Source: Planctomycetia bacterium (GTDB taxonomy: Bacteria > Planctomycetota > Phycisphaerae > Phycisphaerales > SM1A02). Taken from it: a stretch of DNA of 14,638 nucleotides. The notes below the pieces were generated by a model, which did no database searches, was not told where the DNA came from, and was given only the letters and a program-made list of their open reading frames with translations. Positions 1,919 to 12,759 of the stretch are shown piece by piece (within the stretch, counting starts at the first letter, position 1; every line of letters begins with the position of its first letter). Both the position numbers and the translations under genes were made by a program. The stretch covers positions 1 to 14,638 of the forward strand of contig SYPI01000096.1 of assembly GCA_005804005.1 (NCBI GenBank). The letters are read 5' to 3'.

Positions 1919-1938
1919 GCGCGTGATGCGCTTGAGGC

Positions 1939-1967
1939 TTGCCGAACCGCCCGGTTTCCCCGACACT
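1939..1967 (+). promoter_or_regulatory. Candidate promoter of the MFS-mla run
   Basis: A -35-like TTGCCG (1939-1944) and a weak -10-like GACACT (1962-1967) are separated by 17 bp. They sit 6 nt before GTG 1974. Transcription starting about 7 nt past the -10 would begin at or next to that start codon, giving a leaderless mRNA. This spacing is part of why GTG 1974 is preferred over the upstream GTG/ATG at 1923/1926. The hexamers are weak matches. Confidence 0.28.
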
Positions 1968-1973
1968 CACCGC

Positions 1974-3320
1974 GTGAATGAACCGCACCGGACGCTGACT
2001 CCCTCTGCCGCGTCCCCCGAACTTAGCGCGCCCGTGAGCCGCGCCGCAATCATGGCCGTAGTGGTGGCATCTCTGGGGTATTTCGTCGACATCTACGACC
2101 TGATTCTGTTCAGCGTGGTGCGCGTTCCCAGCCTAAAGGGGCTGGGCGCCACCGAATCCGAAGTCCTCACACTGGGCGCGTCGCTGATCAGTTGGCAAAT
2201 GTTCGGGATGGTGGTGGGCGGGCTGGCCTGGGGAATCTTGGGCGACAAGAAGGGGCGACTCTCCGTGCTGTTCGGCTCGATCATCCTCTACTCGTTGGCC
2301 AACATCGCCAACGGGTTGGTGGCCACGGTCGAGCCGGGCACTGCATGGGGCAATCTGCTGGCCACGCTAGGAATGAGCCACGGCATCGATCAGTACCGGG
2401 CGCTGCGATTCATCGCCGGGATCGGGCTGGCTGGCGAACTCGGCGCCGGTGTGACGCTGGTGAGCGAACTGCTGGGCCGCCACGCTCGCGGCTACGGCAC
2501 CACCATCGTGGCCACCTTTGGAATCTGCGGTGGCCTGATGGCTACCTTCGTGGCCGGCAAGTTCGACTGGCGCACGGCGTATTTCGTCGGCGGTGGGATG
2601 GGGCTGGCGCTCCTAGTCCTGCGCATCGGCGTGGTGGAGAGCGGGATGTTCAAGACACTTCGCACGACAACCGTCGTGCGCGGCAGCCTATTGATGCTGT
2701 TCTGGCCCCCGCGGCGCTTTCTTCGCTACGCGGCGATCGTGTTGGTGGCAGTGCCGATCTGGTTCGTGGTGGCTATCCCGGTGACCTTCGCCCCAGAGTT
2801 CGGAAAGCAGATGGGATTCACCGAGACGCTCAGTGCACCGACCGCAATCGCCTGGACATACACCGGTCTGGTGCTGGGCGACTTGGCCTCGGGACTGCTG
2901 AGCCAGTTCCTGCGCAGCCGCCGCCGGGCGCTATTGGTGTTCCTGCTGTTTACCACCGCGACCCTAGCTAGTTTCTTCATTGCCCCGAGGTTCGAGCGAG
3001 AGGCGTGGAGCTTCTACACGGTGTGTGCTGTGATGGGTCTGAGCATCGGCTACTGGGCGGTGTTTGTGACCACGGTTGGTGAACTATTCGGCACGAATCT
3101 GCGGGCCACCGCCACGACCAGCGCCCCGAATCTGGTGCGTGGGTTTGTTCCGCTGCTCACTTGGGCTTGGCTGGCGCTGGTCGGGGCTGGAATGAGCCAT
3201 GTCAACGCCGCCGCGGTAGTTGGCTTCGGCACTATCGTGGTTGCCATGGCCGCCTTGGCTTCACTTCCAGAAACTTACGGCCGCCACCTCGACTTCCTCG
3301 AAGGGCACGGCCGAGATTGA
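1974..3320 (+). CDS. MFS transporter (sugar/metabolite:H+ symporter type)
   Basis: An inner-membrane major facilitator of about 448 residues with roughly twelve hydrophobic segments. The first is AAIMAVVVASLGYFVDIYDL. The loop between segments 2 and 3 carries the MFS signature GDKKGR (residues 90-95). Segment 4 reads GIGLAGELGAGVTLVSE (149-165), with acidic and glycine residues typical of sugar and organic-acid porters. The C-terminus, LPETYGRHLDFLEG, matches the usual sugar-porter tail. The start is uncertain: GTG 1923 and ATG 1926 are in frame, but they leave only about 21 bp to the divergent gene, whereas GTG 1974 has a plausible promoter just upstream. The stop overlaps the next start as TTGA. 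The substrate is unknown; neighbouring tyrosine-degradation genes make an aromatic or organic acid possible, but that is a guess. Confidence 0.85.
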   Translation: MNEPHRTLTPSAASPELSAPVSRAAIMAVVVASLGYFVDIYDLILFSVVRVPSLKGLGATESEVLTLGASLISWQMFGMVVGGLAWGILGDKKGRLSVLFGSIILYSLANIANGLVATVEPGTAWGNLLATLGMSHGIDQYRALRFIAGIGLAGELGAGVTLVSELLGRHARGYGTTIVATFGICGGLMATFVAGKFDWRTAYFVGGGMGLALLVLRIGVVESGMFKTLRTTTVVRGSLLMLFWPPRRFLRYAAIVLVAVPIWFVVAIPVTFAPEFGKQMGFTETLSAPTAIAWTYTGLVLGDLASGLLSQFLRSRRRALLVFLLFTTATLASFFIAPRFEREAWSFYTVCAVMGLSIGYWAVFVTTVGELFGTNLRATATTSAPNLVRGFVPLLTWAWLALVGAGMSHVNAAAVVGFGTIVVAMAALASLPETYGRHLDFLEGHGRD

Positions 3321-4417
3321 GTTCTTGGGAGCCCAGCGCCGGGCCGGCGAGGCAACTCACGCTCGAAGGTGGGCTGGATGCGGCCGCCGTGGCCGCGCTC
3401 TGGGACGGCGTTGTGGAAACGATTCGTCAAGCTCCGCCACGCCAGGCGGTGATTGACATGACCAAGGTCTCCCGCGTCGACGGCGCCGGGCTGGCCATGC
3501 TGGCCGAGATCAGTCGGATCATCGCCGCTGGTGGCGGAACCCTGCGGCTGGAAGGCGCCCCGGCAGAGGCCGGGCGGATTGTTGACCAGATCGCCGCCTC
3601 GGCGCTGCCGCCGGCGCGCCAACCAGTTGGTGCGATCGAACAGATCGGGTGCGGGGTCATTGGCGCAGCGAACCATCTGGGCGATCTGGTGGAGTTCACC
3701 GGCGCGGTGGCGATCTCCTCGCGCGCGGCGCTGCGGGCCCCCGGCAGCGTGCGCTGGCGCGATGTCCTCTCAATCGCTGCGCGCACCGGTTTCGATGCCG
3801 TGGCCGTCACTTGCTTGCTCGGCTTCATCATCGGTTTCATCATCGCCTTCCAGACGCTGCCGTCGTTCCAGACTTACGGCGCTGGCAACATGGTGGCGGT
3901 GGTAATCGGTGTGGCCATGGTGCGCGAACTCGGGCCGCTGATCACCGGGGTGGTGCTGGCTGGGCGCAGCGGGTCAGCATTCGCCGCGGAACTGGGCACC
4001 ATGACGGTGACCAACGAGATCGATGCTCTGCGCACATTCGGCCTCGACCCGGTGCGCTTCCTGGTCATCCCGCGGATGCTGGCCGCCATGGTCACCACGC
4101 CGCTGCTGTCGCTGTTCTGCACCTTCCTCGGCGTACTCGGCGGCTACGCAGTGCTTGCTGGCACTGGGATGTCGGGGGCGTACTTCGTGCAAGAAGTGCA
4201 GAGTGCCATCGGTGTGATGGATCTGCTTCAGGGAATGGTCAAAGCGGGGGTGTTCGCTCTGCTAGTGGCCGGGGCCGGCTGCGCCAGCGGGCTGCAGACC
4301 GGTGCCGGGCCGGGGGCGGTCGGCGAGAGTGCCACGCGGGCGGTGGTGGCCGGGATCGTGCTGGTCATTCTCAGCGACGGCGTGATGGGTTGGCTCTTCT
4401 TCCTGATGGGCATCTGA
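3317..4417 (+). CDS. mlaE: MlaE-family ABC transporter permease with fused N-terminal STAS (MlaB-like) domain
   Basis: The membrane subunit of an Mla-type phospholipid transporter, about 366 residues. Residues 14-95 are a STAS domain (LTLEGGLDAAAVAALWDG, then IDMTKVSRVDGAGLAML) that aligns well with E. coli MlaB. Residues 108-366 are the MlaE permease, with the conserved run RELGPLITGVVLAGRSGSA followed by an E-x-G-T-M and E-I-D-A-L coupling-helix region (203-238) and about five hydrophobic segments. The start is taken as TTG 3317, overlapping the transporter stop as TTGA. No ATG or GTG lies between it and GTG 3449, which would remove most of the STAS domain; upstream in-frame starts would run through the transporter gene as an arginine/proline-rich peptide. 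The residue matching MlaB Thr52 (VDT) is Gly56 here (VDG). The ATPase gene begins on the base after the stop. Confidence 0.92.
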   Translation: MSSWEPSAGPARQLTLEGGLDAAAVAALWDGVVETIRQAPPRQAVIDMTKVSRVDGAGLAMLAEISRIIAAGGGTLRLEGAPAEAGRIVDQIAASALPPARQPVGAIEQIGCGVIGAANHLGDLVEFTGAVAISSRAALRAPGSVRWRDVLSIAARTGFDAVAVTCLLGFIIGFIIAFQTLPSFQTYGAGNMVAVVIGVAMVRELGPLITGVVLAGRSGSAFAAELGTMTVTNEIDALRTFGLDPVRFLVIPRMLAAMVTTPLLSLFCTFLGVLGGYAVLAGTGMSGAYFVQEVQSAIGVMDLLQGMVKAGVFALLVAGAGCASGLQTGAGPGAVGESATRAVVAGIVLVILSDGVMGWLFFLMGI

Positions 4418-5188
4418 ATGGCAACTGACGCAATCATCACCTTGAAGGATGCCGCAGTCGGCTACGGCGGTGAGCCGGTGCTGACGGGGTTGAACTTCTC
4501 GGTCAGGCGCGGCGAGATATTCGTGGTGGCTGGTGGCTCTGGCTGCGGCAAGTCGACAATCATGCGCACCCTCATCACACTCTTGCCGCCGATGGGCGGG
4601 CAAGTGATGCTCGATGGAGTAGACCTGGCCCGCGCCACGGGGGACGAGATCAACGCCTTGCGCCGCCGTATCGGGGTCATGTATCAGTCGGGGGCGCTGT
4701 TCGGCGGACTAACTCTCCTGGAGAATGTCCGACTGCCGCTGGAGGAGTTCACGGCCTTGAGCACCCCGGCGCAGACCGCGGTAGCCCGGGCCAAACTGGC
4801 GGTGGTGGGGCTCTCGGCCGACGCCGAGAAGCTGCCCTCGGAGGTTTCCGGCGGCATGCAGAAGCGCGCTGCCGTGGCCCGGGCGCTGGCCCTCGACGCC
4901 CCCATTGCCTTCCTCGACGAACCCACCGCCGGGCTCGACCCGGTGACGAGCGCCGAGTTCGACGAACTCATCCTCTCGCTCAATTCGCTGTTGGGCACTA
5001 CCTTCGTGGTGGTGACCCATGAACTGCCCAGCATCGAACGGATCGCTACGCGCATGGTGATCTGCGATCGGCGGCGCAAGACCGCCGTGGCCATCGGTGC
5101 GCCGCGTGAACTTCGCGAGCAGTGCACGGATCCCGAGGTTCAAGCATTCTTGAATCGGCGCTCCATGAGCGGGGCGGGGCAGTCATGA
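4418..5188 (+). CDS. mlaF: MlaF-type ABC transporter ATP-binding protein
   Basis: A cytoplasmic ATPase of 256 residues that powers the MlaE/MCE lipid transporter. All nucleotide-binding motifs are intact: Walker A GGSGCGKST (39-47), Q-loop Gln90 in MYQSGALF, signature SGGMQKR (144-150), Walker B IAFLDEP (163-169) followed by TAGLDP, and switch His201 in VVVTHEL. The MYQSGALF Q-loop and the SGGM(Q/R)KR signature are characteristic of the MlaF/MKL group rather than of sugar or amino-acid importers. The ATG directly follows the mlaE stop (TGA 4415-4417), and the gene's own stop overlaps the next start as ATGA, so translation is probably coupled along the transporter genes. Confidence 0.95.
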   Translation: MATDAIITLKDAAVGYGGEPVLTGLNFSVRRGEIFVVAGGSGCGKSTIMRTLITLLPPMGGQVMLDGVDLARATGDEINALRRRIGVMYQSGALFGGLTLLENVRLPLEEFTALSTPAQTAVARAKLAVVGLSADAEKLPSEVSGGMQKRAAVARALALDAPIAFLDEPTAGLDPVTSAEFDELILSLNSLLGTTFVVVTHELPSIERIATRMVICDRRRKTAVAIGAPRELREQCTDPEVQAFLNRRSMSGAGQS

Positions 5189-6186
5189 GTCAGGGTCGCA
5201 GCGCGGCATACAAGGTCGGCGTGTTCACTGTCGCGGCTACGGGATTGCTGTTGGCTGGGGTGGCCACGCTTTCCAGCCGGGCCATGTTTGCGCCTACGGT
5301 GCTGTGCGAGTCGTACTTCACTGAGTCAATCAATGGATTGGCCGTTGGTTCGGTGGTGAAGTACCAGGGGGTGACCGTCGGCCAGGTGGATCACATCGGA
5401 TTTCCAGCGCTGCAGTACGAGGAAGCTGGTTCGATGCTTCAGGCACCGTACGACACTTATGTCTCGGCCCACATGAGCCTTCACGTGGGGGCCGAAGGGC
5501 ACCTGACCGTCACCGAGTTGAAGGAGGCGCTGACCAAGGCCGTCAGTAGGGGATTGAGGGCCCGGGTGACCATGGCCGGGATTACCGGCGGCGCGTATGT
5601 TGCTCTGGAGGTAATGGACCCGGCCACCTACCCCGAACTCAAGGTGCCTTGGACACCGGCCAGTCTCTACATCCCATCGGCGCCCGGGCAGTTCGACCTG
5701 CTGATGCGCAACATTGACAACATCGCTGCTGGATTCTCCAAGATCGATTTCCCGGCGCTGGGCAAGGCTTCGCAGAAGCTGGTGGAGGATATCGACCGAG
5801 TGGTTGTGGATGACGCCAAGCCGATGCTCGATCAGATCGAAGCGGCCAGCGTGCGGCTGAAGGCCGTACTTGACGATCCCGGCATAAAGGCGACGATCGA
5901 CAATCTAGAGAGCACCTCGGCCGATCTTTCCGAGGTGATGGGTACCGGCAAGACCAGCCTGCGGCAGTTCATCGCCGCGTTGCCGGGCACGATTCAATCC
6001 ATCAAGGAATTGTCCGACCGGCTCGACTCAGTGGTGGCCGAGGATGAACCGCAGATACGGCAGTTGATCGACCAGCTCAACTCCATCGCCGCCAACCTTG
6101 ATGCCGTCGTCCGCAGTCTGAAGACCAATCCTTCCCGAATCCTGTTCGGTGAAAATCCGCCGGTGCAGGCCCCGAACGCGCCATGA
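5185..6186 (+). CDS. mlaD: MlaD-type MCE domain protein
   Basis: A periplasmic lipid-binding subunit of 333 residues, anchored by one N-terminal membrane segment (about 10-30, VGVFTVAATGLLLAGVATL). A single MCE domain covers about 37-145, with the diagnostic stretch SINGLAVGSVVKYQGVTVGQV. A long, mostly helical region (about 170-315) with regularly spaced hydrophobic residues follows and ends in SLKTNPSRILFGE, a motif common at the end of MlaD/YrbD-like and mycobacterial-like MCE proteins. The protein is much longer than E. coli MlaD (about 180 residues), so the extra helices may build a tunnel or needle across the periplasm, as in larger MCE assemblies; that is inference. ATG 5185 overlaps the mlaF stop (ATGA) and has a G-rich stretch just upstream. 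An upstream in-frame extension to 5122 would run back into mlaF. Confidence 0.93.
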   Translation: MSQGRSAAYKVGVFTVAATGLLLAGVATLSSRAMFAPTVLCESYFTESINGLAVGSVVKYQGVTVGQVDHIGFPALQYEEAGSMLQAPYDTYVSAHMSLHVGAEGHLTVTELKEALTKAVSRGLRARVTMAGITGGAYVALEVMDPATYPELKVPWTPASLYIPSAPGQFDLLMRNIDNIAAGFSKIDFPALGKASQKLVEDIDRVVVDDAKPMLDQIEAASVRLKAVLDDPGIKATIDNLESTSADLSEVMGTGKTSLRQFIAALPGTIQSIKELSDRLDSVVAEDEPQIRQLIDQLNSIAANLDAVVRSLKTNPSRILFGENPPVQAPNAP

Positions 6187-6809
6187 GGTTGCCAATGCGT
6201 CCACCCACGAGTGCTTTCATCCTGCTGCTGATCTGCGCGGTGAGTGCCACCGGGTGTTCGCAGCCGTATCAGGCTGAGTCGCTGTTCGGATTGGGCTCCG
6301 CACCTGCTGCCCAAGCGACTGCGGCGCGCAAGGATTCGCTGGAGGTGCGCTCGATCGCCATCGCCCCGCCCTGTGACTGCGAGCAGTTCACCTACCGCTA
6401 CGCCGATGGCCGCATGCGCAACGATGACTACGCCGGATTCATCGCTCCGCCCGCGGCGTTGCTGGGCACCACGCTGACCCAGCGGCTGGCGGCGGCGGGA
6501 GTGTTCCAGACGGTCATCGGTCCCCAGACTTCAATGGCGGCTGACTTCTCGCTGGTGGTGTCCATCGACTTCCTCGGCGTGGACTTCGACGCTGCTGGAA
6601 CTGGGGCAGGGCTGCTGACCGGTCGAGCGTGGCTGCTGGACGGGGAGGGGCGGTCAGGAAAGCCGGTGTTCCAGTGGGAGCACAGTGCGAGTTCGGCCCT
6701 CACGGCCAACACTCCCGACGCAGTTGCTCAGGCCCTCAGCGCCGCCACCGATTCATGGCTAGACGCGCTGGCGGCGGCGCTGCGCAGCGGCGCCCCATCC
6801 GCGCCATAA
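6183..6809 (+). CDS. ABC-type transport auxiliary lipoprotein (PqiC/YmbA-like)
   Basis: A 208-residue lipoprotein with a hydrophobic segment (residues 11-20) and lipobox SATGC, lipidated at Cys25. The domain at about 53-200 fits the ABC_trans_aux family: SLEVRSIAIAPP, then FTYRYADGRMRNDDYAGFIAPPAALL, then LTQRLAAAGVFQTV. Such proteins sit at the inner face of the outer membrane and receive or deliver lipid for MCE transporters, so it probably takes the outer-membrane role here; no MlaA or MlaC gene is seen. The annotated ATG overlaps the mlaD stop (ATGA). A second ATG at 6195 has a better-spaced GAGG and may be the true start, which would shorten the leader by four residues. An unusual CDC pair lies at 64-66. 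Confidence 0.86.
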   Translation: MRLPMRPPTSAFILLLICAVSATGCSQPYQAESLFGLGSAPAAQATAARKDSLEVRSIAIAPPCDCEQFTYRYADGRMRNDDYAGFIAPPAALLGTTLTQRLAAAGVFQTVIGPQTSMAADFSLVVSIDFLGVDFDAAGTGAGLLTGRAWLLDGEGRSGKPVFQWEHSASSALTANTPDAVAQALSAATDSWLDALAAALRSGAPSAP

Positions 6810-6816
6810 TGCCCCA

Positions 6817-7737
6817 GTGAAGAGCGTCCACGCACTCATGTCGACGGTGGTCGACTACGCGGGCCTGTACCCACCAGCGGCACTTGATGCCCCGACGGTG
6901 GTTGCCAACTATGGCAAGATCACCGCCGGCCGCAACAGCTGGATGCTGGGCCGCTTGGTCTGGCCAACGGCACGGCTGCCGGAACTCTCTGAAATTGCCA
7001 AGTCGCATGCCCCGACCGCGCAGCCGCCCGAAACCGAGGGCGCGTGGGCCATTACCGCGGTCACCTTGCCCGCCAACGATGCGGCCTTCGCCGATTCGCT
7101 GACTGCGGTGGAGCACTTCAACCACCGGCACGAGCAGGAAGGCGAGCCAGCCATGCGCATCGACTCGCTGGAGATTCGGGTTGCCTCGGCAGTGGATGTG
7201 CAACGCACCGCCGACCGGTTGCCCGAGGGGCTGTTCCCATACTTCGAGATTCCCTGGGAACCCGACCCCCGCGGGATGATCGCCGCGCTGGCCGACTTGG
7301 ACTGCGGCGCGAAAGTGCGGACCGGCGGAGAAGCAGCAGCGGCGTTCCCTTCACCCCGCCAACTGGCCCGCTTCATCGCCGCCTGTCACTTCGCCCGCGT
7401 GCCGTTCAAGGCCACCGCTGGCCTTCACCGGGCGCTGGGGCACGCTTCGGAAGCGACTGGCGCAACCCACTTCGGCTTTCTGAATGTGTTCTTGGGCGCC
7501 TGCCTGCTGCACGCGGGCCGAGTCGATGCCGAGGCGCTGGAGATGCTGTTGTCCGACTCAGATCTAGGTTCGTTTGACTTCTGCGACCGAGCGATCGCCT
7601 GGCGCGAGGCATCTCTCTCCGCCGAAGAAATCGAAGATGCCCGTGGTCGCTTTGTTCACTCTTTCGGCAGCTGCTCATTCGAGGAGCCGCTGCACGATCT
7701 GGTGCATCTCGAACTGGTTCCGGCGGGGGTGTCGTGA
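6817..7737 (+). CDS. Conserved protein of unknown function, coupled to fumarylacetoacetase
   Basis: A soluble protein of 306 residues with no signal peptide or membrane segment. I do not recognise a named domain, but several stretches look like conserved motifs: DYAGLYPPA (13-21), YFEIPWE (142-148), GAKVRTGG (164-171), PFKATAGLH (196-204), HFGFLNVFLGA (218-228) and FGSCSFEEP (283-291). Short beta strands ending in charged residues and alternating with helices suggest a (beta/alpha) barrel with Lys166, Arg168, Lys198 and His204 near an active site; this is inference. From memory, similar proteins occur in other phyla without an assigned role. It starts at GTG 6817, 7 nt after the lipoprotein stop, with CATAAT just upstream, and its stop overlaps the fumarylacetoacetase start as GTGA. 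That tight link suggests a role in tyrosine/homogentisate breakdown. Confidence 0.8.
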   Translation: MKSVHALMSTVVDYAGLYPPAALDAPTVVANYGKITAGRNSWMLGRLVWPTARLPELSEIAKSHAPTAQPPETEGAWAITAVTLPANDAAFADSLTAVEHFNHRHEQEGEPAMRIDSLEIRVASAVDVQRTADRLPEGLFPYFEIPWEPDPRGMIAALADLDCGAKVRTGGEAAAAFPSPRQLARFIAACHFARVPFKATAGLHRALGHASEATGATHFGFLNVFLGACLLHAGRVDAEALEMLLSDSDLGSFDFCDRAIAWREASLSAEEIEDARGRFVHSFGSCSFEEPLHDLVHLELVPAGVS

Positions 7738-9023
7738 GCGCGAAATCCTGGGTGACATCGGCGAATGAACTGGGCGACTTCCCGCTGGCGAACTTGCCCT
7801 ACGGTTCGTTCGAGGGCGAATCGCGCCCGCGTCGACTCGGAGTGCGCATCGGCGACGAAGTGGTCGACCTGCGCGCTCTGGTGGAGTGCGGTCTGCTGGG
7901 CGGACTTGATGGGCGAGTTTCTCCGGCACTGACGCAGCCGACTCTCAACGCGTTTCTGGCTCTGGGGCCTGAGGCTTGGCGGCTGACTCGCGCGAGGCTC
8001 ACCCAACTGCTCAGGGCCGATTGTCCGGAGTTGCGCGATCATCCCAAGCGGGGGGCCTGCCTCGTGCCGGTGTGGGGCCTCTCAATGCGCCTGCCGTGTG
8101 ACATCGGCGACTACACCGACTTCTACGCCAGCGTCCACCACGCCACCAATGTCGGCACCATGTTCCGGCCGACCAACCCGCTGCTGCCAAACTGGAAGCA
8201 CCTGCCGGTGGGTTACCACGGCCGATCGAGCAGCCTGTGCGCTAGCCCGACGCAGGTGCGCCGTCCCTGCGGGCAGACCAGCGCCACTGATGAAGGGCCG
8301 CCAGTGTTCGGGCCGACGAAGCTGCTCGATTATGAACTCGAGGTTGGGGCGATCATCGGCACCGGCAACCCGATCGGCACCCGCGTCACGCCGTCCGACG
8401 CGTGGCGGCGAATCTTCGGACTGGTGCTGGTGAACGACTGGTCGGCGCGGGATGTGCAGAAGTGGGAGTACCAGCCGCTGGGCCCATTCACCGCCAAAAA
8501 CTTCGTAACCACTGTGTCGCCCTGGGTGGTCACAATGGAAGCCCTGCGTCCGTATTGTGAGCCGGTTGTGGCGCGACCCGGCGGCGACCCAATGCCATTG
8601 CCGCACCTGATCTGCCCCAACGATGTGGCGATTCCCATTCAACTTGAGGTGACCATTGCATCCGAGAAGATGCGCCAGGCGCGCCAGACGCCGCACTTGC
8701 TCAGTCGCGGCAACTTCCGCGACATGTATTGGTCGTTCGCTCAGATGCTCGCCCACCACACTTCCACCGGCTGCGCGATGCAGCCCGGAGACCTGATCGC
8801 CAGCGGCACTGTTAGCGGCCCCGCCAAGGATTCGCGCGGCTGCCTCTTGGAACTGACTTGGCGCGGCACAGAGCCGATCGATCTGCCCGATGGCACACAG
8901 CGGCGCTTCCTGCAAGATGGCGACGAGGTGGGCATGAGCGGCCGACTCGAGCGCGCTGGACTGCCGCGCCTCGGATTCGGCGACTGCACCGGCACAGTGC
9001 TACCGGCCCACCCGGCCGACTAG
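7734..9023 (+). CDS. fahA: Fumarylacetoacetase
   Basis: Hydrolyses 4-fumarylacetoacetate to fumarate and acetoacetate, the last step of the homogentisate route of tyrosine breakdown, in the cytoplasm. The 429 residues match the usual family length (about 420). A smaller N-terminal domain (about 15-115) precedes the catalytic FAH domain. Residues matching the mouse enzyme are present: metal ligand Asp129 in DYTDFY, catalytic His136 in HHATN, Glu201 and Glu203 in DYELEV, Asp235 in NDWSARD and Lys255 in FTAKNF. Other hallmark runs are LLPNWKHLPVGYHGR and QKWEYQPLGPF. GTG 7734 overlaps the stop of the preceding unknown gene (GTGA). The gene ends 2 bp before the end of a convergent gene, so there is no room for a terminator between them. 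Confidence 0.97.
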   Translation: MSAKSWVTSANELGDFPLANLPYGSFEGESRPRRLGVRIGDEVVDLRALVECGLLGGLDGRVSPALTQPTLNAFLALGPEAWRLTRARLTQLLRADCPELRDHPKRGACLVPVWGLSMRLPCDIGDYTDFYASVHHATNVGTMFRPTNPLLPNWKHLPVGYHGRSSSLCASPTQVRRPCGQTSATDEGPPVFGPTKLLDYELEVGAIIGTGNPIGTRVTPSDAWRRIFGLVLVNDWSARDVQKWEYQPLGPFTAKNFVTTVSPWVVTMEALRPYCEPVVARPGGDPMPLPHLICPNDVAIPIQLEVTIASEKMRQARQTPHLLSRGNFRDMYWSFAQMLAHHTSTGCAMQPGDLIASGTVSGPAKDSRGCLLELTWRGTEPIDLPDGTQRRFLQDGDEVGMSGRLERAGLPRLGFGDCTGTVLPAHPAD

Positions 9024-9025
9024 AC

Positions 9026-9661
9026 CTACCACTTCATCATCTTGTCGATAGCCGGGATGTCCAGCGCCACCTGATCGCCGACTTTGATTCCCAGCTTGGC
9101 ATTGGTTCCCGCGCGCGTCTCGATGGCGAAGCGGGCTGGCCGCCCTGACGGATAGCGCTGCAGTCGCAGCCGGTACCCCTCGTCGGCCTCGCCGGGCAGG
9201 CGAAGCTCTTCCTTCTTCATGGTGTAGATCGCCGTCACCACGCCGCGGGCATCTAGGAAAGCGATGTCGATGTCGATCACGCAGTCGTACATCCAGAACG
9301 ACAGGCGATCGGAGATCGGGTAGACGAACAGCATTCCGGTGCCTTCGGGAATGTCAGTGCGCTTGCCGAGCCCGCGCTGCACGCTCAGATTGCTGGCGGC
9401 TACTTCCAACGCGAAGGTCTGCCCGCCAAACTGCTGGTCAATGATTGGGAGCTGGCTCATTGGATGGACGCGGCGCTTGGGTGGGGCTGGTGCAGCGGGA
9501 GGCGTCGGCGCGTTGGGCGCGGCGTTTGCTGGCGGCGTCGCCTGGTTGGGCCCCGGCGGAGTACGCGTGACTTCAGGAAGCACCGCCAAAGCGCATGCGG
9601 TCAGCCCCACGATGGCGATGATGGCGATCTTGGCACTAAGGCGCACGATTGACCTCACCAT
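9026..9661 (-). CDS. DUF192 family lipoprotein
   Basis: A 211-residue exported protein. Residues 1-23 are a hydrophobic leader ending in a good lipobox, LTAC (Cys23). A Pro/Ala-rich flexible linker (about 29-62) precedes a DUF192 domain (about 78-205) with the usual runs: ALEVAASNLSVQRGLGKR, GTGMLFVYPISDRLSFWMYD and IDIAFLDARGVVTAIYTM, closing with GIKVGDQVALDI. The biochemical role of DUF192 is unknown. ATG 9661 overlaps the end of the homogentisate dioxygenase gene (ATGGTGA), so the two are probably translated together; GTG 9658 is an alternative start. An in-frame extension upstream to 9793 would lie inside the dioxygenase gene and lose the leader at the N-terminus, so it is rejected. Confidence 0.88.
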   Translation of the reverse strand: MVRSIVRLSAKIAIIAIVGLTACALAVLPEVTRTPPGPNQATPPANAAPNAPTPPAAPAPPKRRVHPMSQLPIIDQQFGGQTFALEVAASNLSVQRGLGKRTDIPEGTGMLFVYPISDRLSFWMYDCVIDIDIAFLDARGVVTAIYTMKKEELRLPGEADEGYRLRLQRYPSGRPARFAIETRAGTNAKLGIKVGDQVALDIPAIDKMMKW

Positions 9662-10959
9662 GTGTCGGCGTCGGACTCGCCGTTGGCCACTGCAGCGCGC
9701 CGACCCGGTTTGGCCGCCTTGGCCGCCTTGCCGCCGGATTTCGCCTTCGCCTTGCCATTGACCGGGGCAAACGGCGCCGCCGCACCCTCCCACGACTTCG
9801 GATACGCGGCGTCATCCAGTTCCAGCGCGGCGCGCGTGGGGAACAGCGGACGGAATGTGTCGCACATCACGGCCAGTTCATTGGTGTGCGTCGCGCCCAG
9901 AGACGCTTCCACCGTGCCCGGGTGCGGTCCATGCGGGATGCCTTGAGGATGCAGAGTCAGGCTGGCCGGCTCGATCCCCTTGCGGGCCTTGTAGTTGCCC
10001 TCGACGTAGTACAGCACCTCGTCGGAGTCGAGGTTGGAGTGGTAGTAGGGCACCACAACTGCCTGCGGATGGAAGTCCAGGGGCCGCGGGCAGAATGAGC
10101 AGATGACGAAATTGTGCGCGTCAAATGTCTGGTGAGTCGGCGGGGGCATGTGGTGCTTGCCGACGATCGGGCTGAAGTCATCGATGTTGAAGATGTACGG
10201 GTAGTAGCACCCGTCCCAGCCGACCACATCGAGGGGGTGGTAGCCGTAGCTGTAGGAGTGCACCATCCCGCGACTCTTGATTCGCACCTCGAACGAGCCC
10301 TTCTTGTCGTAGGTCAGCGGCAGTTGCGGTAGGCGCAGGTCGCGCTCGCAGTAGGGAGCGTGTTCCAGAAACTGGGAACTGGTCCGCGAGACATAGCGCT
10401 TGGGCGGTCCGATGTGGCTGCCGTTGACGCTCTCGATGACTAGAAAGCGCGCGGGTGGGTCGCCATCCATCGGCTCATCGAAGGCCATCCGATAGGTCGT
10501 TCCCTTGGGAATCAGGATGTAGTCCTTGGCGCGGAAGTTCAGGGTGCCGAATGAAGTCCATACCGTGCCATTGCCGTGGTGAATGAAGATGCATTCATCG
10601 CCGACCCCATTCTTGTAGTGGTATCTCATCCCCTCGGCGGGTACGCACACCGCCATTTCGACATCAGAGTTGCCGAACAGGACCACCCGACCGGTGATCG
10701 GGTCGCCGCGCGGTGGCATGGCGGCACTCTTGAGGTGCCGCATGCGCATGGTGTCGGTTTCCACGAACTCGGCGGCGCAGGAGTAGAGGGTCTTCCAGCC
10801 AGAAACTTGAGTGGGGGGGTGGATGTGGTAGAGGGTCGAGGTCGGGCCAACGAACCCCTCGGTGCCGAACACCTCTTCGGAGTACAACGCACCGTCCTTG
10901 CGACGGAATTGGATGTGGCGCTTGGCGGGAATGTTGCCGAGCCGGCTGTAGAAGGGCAT
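9655..10959 (-). CDS. hmgA: Homogentisate 1,2-dioxygenase
   Basis: A non-haem Fe(II) enzyme that opens the homogentisate ring to maleylacetoacetate in tyrosine and phenylalanine breakdown. The 434 residues form two cupin-like halves. Iron ligands are visible as His307 (VVPYYHSN), Glu314 (DSDEVLYY) and His343 (QGIPHGPHPG), matching human His335, Glu341 and His371. Other family stretches are HIHPPTQVSGW (45-55) and HPLDVVGWDGCYYPYIFNI (241-259). The start is ATG 10959, which begins MPFYSRLGNIP as in related proteins; an in-frame extension to 11298 would run through the promoter gap and the divergent gene. An unusual Lys/Ala/Gly-rich basic tail covers about 402-425. There is no Shine-Dalgarno sequence, and TAAACT lies 8 nt upstream. 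The DUF192 gene overlaps its end. Confidence 0.95.
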   Translation of the reverse strand: MPFYSRLGNIPAKRHIQFRRKDGALYSEEVFGTEGFVGPTSTLYHIHPPTQVSGWKTLYSCAAEFVETDTMRMRHLKSAAMPPRGDPITGRVVLFGNSDVEMAVCVPAEGMRYHYKNGVGDECIFIHHGNGTVWTSFGTLNFRAKDYILIPKGTTYRMAFDEPMDGDPPARFLVIESVNGSHIGPPKRYVSRTSSQFLEHAPYCERDLRLPQLPLTYDKKGSFEVRIKSRGMVHSYSYGYHPLDVVGWDGCYYPYIFNIDDFSPIVGKHHMPPPTHQTFDAHNFVICSFCPRPLDFHPQAVVVPYYHSNLDSDEVLYYVEGNYKARKGIEPASLTLHPQGIPHGPHPGTVEASLGATHTNELAVMCDTFRPLFPTRAALELDDAAYPKSWEGAAAPFAPVNGKAKAKSGGKAAKAAKPGRRAAVANGESDADTW

Positions 10960-10967
10960 GGCATTAC

Positions 10968-10973
10968 AGTTTA
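10968..10973 (-). promoter_or_regulatory. Candidate -10 element of hmgA
   Basis: TAAACT on the minus strand ends 8 nt before the hmgA ATG, in the 63-bp divergent gap. There is no Shine-Dalgarno sequence between it and the start. Transcription would begin within a few bases of the ATG. The upstream hexamer TCGCAA (10989-10994, 15-bp spacing) is only a weak -35 match. Confidence 0.27.
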
Positions 10974-10988
10974 GGAGGAGCGCCGCCC

Positions 10989-11016
10989 TTGCGAGTGCGG
11001 CCGCTGGGCCTATCTT
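10989..11016 (+). promoter_or_regulatory. Candidate leaderless promoter of the FAD oxidoreductase gene
   Basis: TTGCGA (10989-10994) and TATCTT (11011-11016) are separated by 16 bp, a reasonable sigma-70-type pair. The ATG begins at 11023, 6 nt after the -10 hexamer, so the transcript would start at or next to the start codon. The AGGAGG at 10973-10978 is about 44 nt from the ATG, too far to act as its ribosome binding site. Confidence 0.35.
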
Positions 11017-11022
11017 CAATTC

Positions 11023-12759
11023 ATGGCGCGAGGCGTTGGGCAACTTGGTCGCCGGGCTTTTCTCGGCCACGGCCTCGGTGCGCTGTCGGCTGGCCTGAGT
11101 TTGGGCGCCATTGGTGCTCTGGGCAGCCGCCGGGCGGGCGCGTTCCCGATGGCCCCGGGCGCTTGGACTCCCGCCGGAAAGTGTGGTCCGTTCTTGAGTC
11201 TGGGTGATACGCCGGGGGCATCGCAAGTGATCGGCGGCCTGCCATACTCGCCGCGCTGGTACGGCGACGACTTCTCCTTCGCAAACATTCCGTTCCACTC
11301 TTGTGAATCATGCGACTCGCCACCCCTGGCCAGCGACACCGAGACCGATGTCATCATCATCGGCGGTGGGATTTCCGGATTGGCGACTGCTCACGCCCTG
11401 CGCGACCAGTGCAAGTTCGTGGTGCTTGACCTGCGGCCGCGGTTGGGCGGAAATGCAATGGGCGAATCTTGGCGCGGGCTGAACTGCTCGCTCGGCTCGG
11501 CCTACTTCATGGTCCCTGACAAGGGCGATGAGTTCGACTCGTTCTACAAGTCGCTGGGGGTTTACGAGGCGGCGCGCATCGACGAGGGGGGCGGCTTCAA
11601 GGTGGAGTACGGCATGCGCCTGATTGATGACCTGGCGCAAGGTGCTAGTCCGGAGCAACGGCTCGCCTTCGCGCGCTACCGAGCCATGGTGGCCCACTAC
11701 GCCAACGACGCCTACCCGGACATCCCGCTGAGCAATGGCCCCGAGGTGCGCGATGTTCTGCGATTGGACCAGAGCAGTTTCGCCGACCATGTGACCGCGG
11801 GCTGCGGACCGCTGCCGCCGCTGGTGACGCAGGCCATTCAGGCTTACTGCTACTCGTCGTTCGGGGTCGGCTGGCAGTACCTCTCGGCGGCTGCTGGCTG
11901 GAACTTCATCGCCGCCGAAGAGTGGGGGCGGATTGTCCTACCTGGTGGCAACGCCGGATTGGTGAAACTGATGCACGATTCAATGCGCCACCTCGATCCA
12001 GCCGCCGACAGCGAGCCCGGCATGGTGTTCCGCGCTGGCTGCATGGCCACTGATGTGCGCATCGAAGGGGATCGCGTTCGGGTGCAGTTCCGAGATCAGG
12101 CTGGCGCCCTGCACCAGTTGCGCGGCAAGCACGCGGTAGTTGCCACCAGCAAGCACATCAGCAGGCACTTCTTCCCGCAAATGGAGACCCTTGACCGAGA
12201 GAAATGGGACCTGATCCCGGCAGTGGAGAACATGGCCTATCTGGTGGCAAATGTTTTGCTGACCAAGCGCGTGGCGCTGGACTTCTACGACATTTTCACG
12301 GTGCACGACGCCCAGTTCCCGATGGACGACGAGGCCTTCAACCTCGACCGCCGGGTCACCGACACGCTCTTGGGCTCGTTCGCCGTTACCAGCAGCGCCC
12401 AGCGCGATGACATCCTCACCATGTTCTGGCCGCTGCCGTGGTTCACGGCGCGCTTCTCGGTGATTGGCGAAACCGACTGGCGCGACTACGCCAGTCTCGG
12501 TAGTGGGCAGATTCGCCGCGCTTTGCGAATCTTGGGCCTGCGCGACTCGGATGTTGCCCAAGTGCGCCTCACTCGCTGGGGTCACGCCATGCCGATCGCC
12601 ATGCCAGGGCAGATTTCGTCGGGGTTGCCGCAGGTCATTCGCCGCCCGGTGCAGGATCGGGTCTGGTTCGTGAATCAAGACAACTGGATGCTGCCAGCGG
12701 TTGAGACCTGCCTCAGCGAGGCTTGGGAGATGGCCGGAGAGATCGTTCAGCGGTTGTAG
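11023..12759 (+). CDS. Tat-exported FAD-dependent oxidoreductase (flavin amine oxidase-like)
   Basis: A 578-residue flavoprotein. The N-terminus carries a twin-arginine export signal (GRRAFLGHGLGALSAGL, residues 9-25), implying that it folds with its cofactor and is then sent to the periplasm. The FAD-binding dinucleotide fold starts at DVIIIGGGISGLATAHAL (109-126), followed by VVLDLRPRLGGNAMGESW (133-150), as in amine oxidases and phytoene-desaturase-like enzymes. The C-terminal FAD closure is RVWFVNQDNWMLPAVETCLSEA-like, near 546-567. A CxxC pair (Cys94, Cys97) lies just before the FAD domain. The true substrate is unknown; polyamines, amino acids or isoprenoid-type compounds are all possible. 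It is divergent from hmgA across a 63-bp gap, which may reflect shared control or simple packing. Confidence 0.85.
   Translation: MARGVGQLGRRAFLGHGLGALSAGLSLGAIGALGSRRAGAFPMAPGAWTPAGKCGPFLSLGDTPGASQVIGGLPYSPRWYGDDFSFANIPFHSCESCDSPPLASDTETDVIIIGGGISGLATAHALRDQCKFVVLDLRPRLGGNAMGESWRGLNCSLGSAYFMVPDKGDEFDSFYKSLGVYEAARIDEGGGFKVEYGMRLIDDLAQGASPEQRLAFARYRAMVAHYANDAYPDIPLSNGPEVRDVLRLDQSSFADHVTAGCGPLPPLVTQAIQAYCYSSFGVGWQYLSAAAGWNFIAAEEWGRIVLPGGNAGLVKLMHDSMRHLDPAADSEPGMVFRAGCMATDVRIEGDRVRVQFRDQAGALHQLRGKHAVVATSKHISRHFFPQMETLDREKWDLIPAVENMAYLVANVLLTKRVALDFYDIFTVHDAQFPMDDEAFNLDRRVTDTLLGSFAVTSSAQRDDILTMFWPLPWFTARFSVIGETDWRDYASLGSGQIRRALRILGLRDSDVAQVRLTRWGHAMPIAMPGQISSGLPQVIRRPVQDRVWFVNQDNWMLPAVETCLSEAWEMAGEIVQRL

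Follow-up and report, generated by a model that had tools for sequence, protein, structure and literature searches.

The locus and its neighbours

The window that we analysed, 14,638 nucleotides of a planctomycete contig (SYPI01000096.1), carries on its forward strand a real gene at positions 6817-7737, here called X, that begins with GTG and comprises 306 codons for an uncharacterised protein. Translation may start at GTG 6817, the position at which many relatives begin, or at the alternative ATG 6838, which would fit the database gene call of 299 amino acids (P0002). As the sequence-only reading had noted, X overlaps the start of the gene that follows, its TGA stop and the next GTG start forming a four-base overlap, GTGA, at 7734-7737 on the forward strand. 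That next gene (7734-9023, forward) encodes fumarylacetoacetase (FAH), which scores 518.7 bits against TIGR01266 (cut-off 375.3) and contains PF01557 and PF09298.

On the reverse strand, at 9655-11298, lies a divergent homogentisate 1,2-dioxygenase (HGD). Its HgmA_N and HgmA_C domains exceed their cut-offs, its TIGR01015 score of 64.9 bits is well under the cut-off of 510.75, and it matches the solved HGDs 1ey2 (E 2.2e-9) and 3zds (E 2e-8) in the PDB. Many homologous matches start only at residue 104-114 of this open reading frame (ORF), and its first ~100 codons, which overlap an FAD-enzyme gene on the opposite strand, are probably not translated. The adjoining gene for an FAD-dependent amine-oxidase-like protein (11023-12759, forward) is placed divergently to that of HGD.

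The same reading had placed HPPD, HGD and FAH together in the window. FAH stands, and so does HGD as a divergent form, but HPPD had no match among the window's 14 main ORFs scanned. Those 14 ORFs likewise contain no GST. Because the source assembly amounts to 1.3 Mb and is 55.6% complete, the missing GST is uninformative alone, and we left this genome out of any argument from the absence of maiA.

An Mla-type transport cluster (STAS-MlaE, ABC ATPase, MlaD and an auxiliary lipoprotein; 3161-6809, forward) ends 7 bases upstream of X. A gene for an MFS transporter lies at 1923-3320 (forward); its best NCBIfam match, far under cut-off, is to an aromatic acid/H+ symport subfamily, and it could conceivably be an uptake system for the homogentisate pathway. 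A 662-aa protein encoded at 3-1988 on the reverse strand, running off the window edge, contains a PETase-like hydrolase domain (PF12740, E 9e-15); its EF-hand matches are weak and fall under the cut-off.

The X family is widespread in bacteria and is without a name. We found at least 3,381 homologues, and those named by source among the 120 listed are hypothetical proteins. The window protein gave zero matches to Pfam and NCBIfam at E ≤ 1, and zero as a single protein to PADLOC, PHROGs and PDB sequences. The profile of alignment A3, which holds 40 diverse family members, retrieved from the PDB only three unrelated chains (E 0.12 to 0.5); the same 40 members, scanned singly against Pfam, touched nine families with one member each, PF01791 not being among them. 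Among the open-access literature matches listed, none describes the X family or a glutathione-independent maleylacetoacetate isomerase.

The company of X across genomes

Scanning a single genome per species, we found at least 580 X loci and kept the best 80. Similarity to the window protein determined the ranking, so these 80 are not a random set; they are labelled mainly Planctomycetota, with Acidobacteria, Gemmatimonadota, Chlorobi, Chloroflexota and one Nostoc. In 57 of the 80, FAH is the next gene downstream of X, on the same strand and within 300 bp. It lies at 300-3000 bp in five more and on the opposite strand of the locus in two, while in six the contig ends too soon. The other ten have no FAH in the locus, to which the search was limited, and for six of these (all but L036, L057, L066 and L068) the neighbours were worked out.

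Plasmid-borne copies of X, at 27-35% identity, come from Streptomyces, Priestia, Rhodococcus, Pseudonocardia, Nonomuraea, Tsukamurella and the cyanobacterium Kovacikia, and several sit within recognisable pathway clusters. The Streptomyces plasmid has the order HGD-X-FAH-CoA transferase A-B, those of Pseudonocardia and Rhodococcus have HGD-X-FAH, that of Priestia has HPPD-X-FAH-hisC-HGD and that of Kovacikia has X-FAH. The neighbour of X in Nostoc encodes an AsnC-type regulator, HPPD and HGD follow shortly after it, and the locus contains no FAH. A Sphingobium plasmid carries phhA-HPPD-HGD-FAH-maiA, and there an X-like gene is not annotated. Plasmid records with X number 24, none of them Proteobacterial; those with FAH number 118, at least 62 of which belong to Proteobacterial genera in our tally. 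This comparison is partial, covering 60 of 222 maiA records and 40 of 118 FAH records, and none of the 24 X records is among the 60 listed for maiA.

We then counted X and FAH in samples of three phyla, 415 genomes altogether. Matches to X were accepted at E ≤ 1e-3 in Planctomycetota (A1) and at E ≤ 1e-10 in Acidobacteriota and Bacteroidota (A2); distant copies may escape a single-sequence tblastn. The proposal that the family should be linked to fahA across genomes held up well, as all 51 carriers of X have FAH. In Planctomycetota, X and FAH each occur in 8 of 148 genomes, and the two sets coincide, even though the two genes are far apart or on different contigs in four of the eight. In Acidobacteriota, the 21 carriers among 119 genomes all fall within the 25 that have FAH; in 19 of the 21, X lies upstream of FAH on the same strand, the distance being at most 715 bp in 18 of them and 2,825 bp in the other, and in two it lies elsewhere. 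In Bacteroidota, 22 of 148 genomes carry X, all within the 55 with FAH, and of these copies 12 are adjacent to FAH, four lie at about 3 kb and six are unlinked. Fisher tests of the co-occurrence gave P values of 1e-11 to 1e-19, which ignore relatedness and are descriptive only, the counts not being independent because the genomes are related.

A homologue of HGD (E ≤ 1e-8) accompanies X in 49 of the 51 carriers, in many of them under the hmgA cut-off. We searched 80 of the 88 FAH genomes for HGD and found a homologue in 75, but only 16 pass the hmgA cut-off and 59 have solely sub-cut-off matches. With scores this far under the cut-off, annotation pipelines may miss or misname HGD. Taken as a whole, we regard it as almost certain that X acts somewhere in the homogentisate pathway.

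The sequence-only reading had named a maiA gene elsewhere in most carriers as evidence against its proposal. No zeta-class maiA (TIGR01262) over the cut-off was found in any of 47 carriers, in any of the 119 Acidobacteriota or in any of the 148 Bacteroidota, with searches run at E ≤ 1e-5 for the carriers and Acidobacteriota and at E ≤ 1e-20 for Bacteroidota, where Caulobacter scored as the positive control. Among the carriers, sub-cut-off GST matches occurred at 13 places in Nostoc (best 79.4 bits) and in the genomes G217 (42.3 bits) and G258 (34 bits). In the carriers, therefore, FAH is present without a recognisable MaiA.

The anti-correlation with maiA that had also been anticipated is borne out only in part: carriers do lack maiA, but so do whole phyla, and the absence of maiA is for that reason not an independent test of an isomerase role. 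The phyla without maiA are said to be poor in glutathione, which confounds its absence in X carriers; cyanobacteria make glutathione, yet Nostoc carries X. Moreover, 37 of the 88 FAH genomes (4 Acidobacteriota and 33 Bacteroidota) have neither X nor a maiA over the cut-off, so that X must be dispensable in some genomes with FAH. Our own prediction that the four X-less, FAH-bearing Acidobacteriota would have maiA failed, neither gene being present. Among ORFs near FAH, A2 and A3 had no matches in 40 loci, namely those of the 37 genomes lacking X and of three genomes with divergent copies, described below.

Some of these FAH loci have neighbours of their own. A flavin-reductase-like protein of about 300 aa occurs in the FAH loci of 7 of the 37 X-lacking genomes, and a protein of the same type lies near FAH in all three examined genomes with divergent copies (together L222, L224, L225, L226, L243, L244, L248 and L253-L255). 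The three that were scanned contain PF01613, and the rest, 51-59% identical, were recognised by BLAST; an acetoacetate-CoA ligase gene comes next in L225. This protein could be a separate, unrelated solution to the isomerisation. Two Acidobacteriota without X (L218 and L219) have an ORF of about 1,085-1,088 aa beside FAH; in L218, the locus of the two that was scanned, HPPD lies on the other side of FAH.

Conserved residues and the predicted fold

Four motif-like stretches had been singled out in X, and all were found in the protein: GAKVRTGG at residues 164-171, PFKATAGLH at 196-204, HFGFLNVF at 218-225 and FGSCSFEEP at 283-291. Their conservation goes well beyond chance. The proposed Schiff-base lysine, Lys166 (codon 7312-7314, this and the following codons all on the forward strand), is present in 80 of 80 relatives and invariant in A3, and the second conserved lysine, Lys198 (7408-7410), is present in 79 of 80 and also invariant in A3. 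Arg168 is identical in 80 of 80 relatives on genome contigs. His204 (7426-7428) and Cys286 (7672-7674), the proposed nucleophile, are each present in 80 of 80, the cysteine also being kept in the three actinobacterial members of A3. Glu119 (7171-7173) is invariant in alignments A1, A2 and A3, and Glu144 (7246-7248) is invariant in A2 and at least 90% conserved in A3.

The guess that X is a barrel enzyme agrees with AlphaFold, which predicts TIM barrels for the family with pLDDT 95-96 and, for the window protein, an eight-stranded alpha/beta barrel with pLDDT 96. In these models Glu119 lies on strand 4, Glu144 at the end of strand 5, Lys166 on strand 6, Lys198 on strand 7, His204 in the loop after strand 7 and Cys286 at the end of strand 8, which would place all six at the catalytic end of the predicted barrel. 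Near-invariant polar residues concentrate on the catalytic face, as we defined it from the strands of the model: 13 of 20 in A1 (P 2.5e-4), 12 of 15 in A2 (P 1.6e-5) and 5 of 7 in A3 (P 0.02). The expectation that the conserved residues share one pocket is thus consistent with the 12 of 15 at the predicted catalytic end, the clustering being read from strand positions, not from coordinates.

The models are structurally closest to deoxyribose-phosphate aldolase (DeoC/DERA, PF01791), with which X is predicted to share the DERA-like (beta/alpha)8 fold. Lys166 and Lys198 lie on strands 6 and 7, which in DeoC carry the Schiff-base pair. In contrast to DeoC, X is 306 aa long, has additional strands ahead of the final one and a cysteine where DeoC has a serine, and is linked to HGD and FAH; moreover, it falls short of the PF01791 gathering cut-off, having no Pfam match at E ≤ 1.

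Membership of X in the DeoC family was also tried by profile-profile comparison, and homology was undetected. Compared by hhalign with a set made up of E. coli DeoC and 20 PF01791-matched sequences, A2 and A3 reached probabilities of 7.6% and 6.7% over 21 columns. At full length, the best pairing of the X and DeoC profiles brings together segments other than the lysine strands. Lys166 and Lys198 pair with DeoC Lys167 and Lys201 solely in a non-significant partial alignment (strands 5-8, 18 sequences with KTSTG, P 0.13), from which the 3 of 21 DeoC-set sequences without KTSTG were dropped, these being kept in the full-length hhalign run. The DeoC set was built from shorter PF01791 matches instead of the top PF01791 loci, which resemble the class I fructose-bisphosphate aldolase type and not DeoC.

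Five of the 22 Bacteroidota copies of X are divergent, at 20-24% identity to the window protein and unlinked to FAH (L146:4438-5415 reverse, L147:4292-5263 forward, L148:4378-5349 reverse, L149:4313-5299 forward and L150:4383-5360 forward). Both lysines and Glu119 are kept in them, and Arg168, His204 and Cys286 are gone. Their genomes all have FAH elsewhere, and the 17 copies that are left when the five are set aside still all come from FAH genomes. It is possible that these five are paralogues of other function. Near the copies in L146, L147 and L149 lies a gene for an HU/IHF-type DNA-binding protein; those in L146 and L147 also have a gene for a T9SS-tailed metalloprotease nearby.

A candidate maleylacetoacetate isomerase

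HGD yields maleylacetoacetate, the cis compound, and FAH takes the trans form, fumarylacetoacetate; textbooks place a single step between the two enzymes, the cis-trans isomerisation of maleylacetoacetate. To our knowledge, this step of the homogentisate pathway is known only as a glutathione enzyme, in which the thiol is added to the double bond, the bond rotates and the thiol is removed again. Since X is linked to FAH and HGD, co-occurs one-way with FAH, is found in carriers without maiA, and is predicted to be a TIM barrel with a polar cluster, we infer that it probably converts maleylacetoacetate to fumarylacetoacetate independently of glutathione, although with appreciable room for another reaction. 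The sequence-only suggestion of a non-orthologous maleylacetoacetate isomerase thus gains support from the FAH link, the absence of maiA and the barrel, the activity itself being inferred.

X would then probably be a non-orthologous isomerase, a new family for a known reaction. The zeta-class GST MaiA/GSTZ1 (TIGR01262) resembles it in the proposed reaction and in the company of HGD and FAH. MaiA, however, has the GST fold, a thioredoxin-like N domain and a helical C domain, whereas X is a predicted TIM barrel, and MaiA depends on glutathione whereas X is assumed to work without it. X as a zeta-class GST is ruled out by this predicted fold and by the TIGR01262 cut-off, which a protein with no NCBIfam match at E ≤ 1 does not reach. 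In the gentisate pathway, mycothiol-dependent (DinB-type) and other glutathione-independent maleylpyruvate isomerases carry out the corresponding cis-trans step without glutathione; X differs from them in having no Pfam match. Maleate cis-trans isomerase, of the Asp/Glu racemase superfamily, adds a cysteine to a cis double bond, as is proposed here for Cys286, but its fold differs from that of X, which again has no Pfam match.

A detailed mechanism can be offered tentatively, and we would not be surprised to see it replaced. By analogy with deoxyribose-phosphate aldolase and its substrate, Lys166 (or Lys198) would condense with the C4 ketone to a Schiff base, and the iminium at C4 would activate C2 for Cys286. 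The cysteine could then add to C2 of the activated double bond, the C2-C3 bond would rotate and Cys286 would leave, while His204, Glu119, Glu144 and Arg168 may handle protons and carboxylates.

Several other roles could account for part of these observations. The strongest, though unlikely, is that X performs another Schiff-base reaction on maleyl- or fumarylacetoacetate, such as retro-aldol or retro-Claisen cleavage, hydrolysis of maleylacetoacetate, or repair of an off-pathway product. Such chemistry would go well with the two conserved lysines of a class I aldolase-like fold, and a maleylacetoacetate hydrolase has been reported in some Bacillus (Crawford 1976, as cited in PMC4457819). Direct cleavage, however, would make FAH unnecessary, and FAH is kept in 51 of 51 carriers; X also lies between HGD and FAH in three clusters.

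The tight and sometimes overlapping linkage to FAH, and the one-way co-occurrence with it, would equally be expected of a protein that is not itself an enzyme but partners FAH or HGD or helps in their assembly. We consider this improbable, as the predicted catalytic end of the TIM barrel has 12 of the 15 near-invariant polar residues, X is unlinked to FAH in four Planctomycetota genomes, and 37 genomes have FAH without X.

Still less probable is a role in the handling of acetoacetate, which FAH also produces: X does stand beside FAH, and a barrel with two lysines could bind acetoacetate as a Schiff base, but the Streptomyces X cluster already has CoA transferase subunits A and B after FAH. An equally slight chance attaches to a role upstream of homogentisate, in 4-hydroxyphenylpyruvate handling or another tyrosine step. 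X adjoins HPPD in Priestia and is near it in Nostoc, whereas the Streptomyces, Pseudonocardia and Rhodococcus clusters run HGD-X-FAH, and the neighbours shown there do not include HPPD. That X is a mere neighbour by descent with no pathway role is a general possibility only, and scarcely a credible one, given that X adjoins FAH in loci labelled Planctomycetota, Acidobacteria, Gemmatimonadota, Chlorobiales, Chloroflexota, Actinomycetota, Bacillota and Cyanobacteriota, that this adjacency persists at 27-55% identity to the window protein, and that the two genes co-occur even where unlinked.

An isomerase role for X would leave a further gap in the pathway. In PMC6193087, the Bacillus thuringiensis operon is described as consisting of hppD, fahA and hmgA, and the authors were unable to identify genes for the isomerisation; the same gap is stated for a related Bacillus species in PMC4457819, which cites the maleylacetoacetate hydrolase mentioned above. 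X alone does not solve this Bacillus gap, for the operons described in these two papers are without X. Together with the 37 of 88 FAH genomes that have no known isomerase, these accounts suggest that some FAHs accept the cis substrate, that there are further isomerases or that the step proceeds without an enzyme.

In conclusion, X is best read as a maleylacetoacetate isomerase of a family not previously named. It might even represent a new class of cis-trans isomerase, with a DERA-like barrel, a lysine iminium and its own cysteine in place of glutathione, that replaces the zeta-class GST in about eight phyla and needs no cofactor; this wider proposal we put forward as speculative. If the isomerase reading is true, a family of thousands completes tyrosine catabolism in bacteria without maiA across many phyla, and annotation pipelines could name a large family that is tied to a textbook pathway. 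Furthermore, X could reveal a new way of isomerising a double bond.
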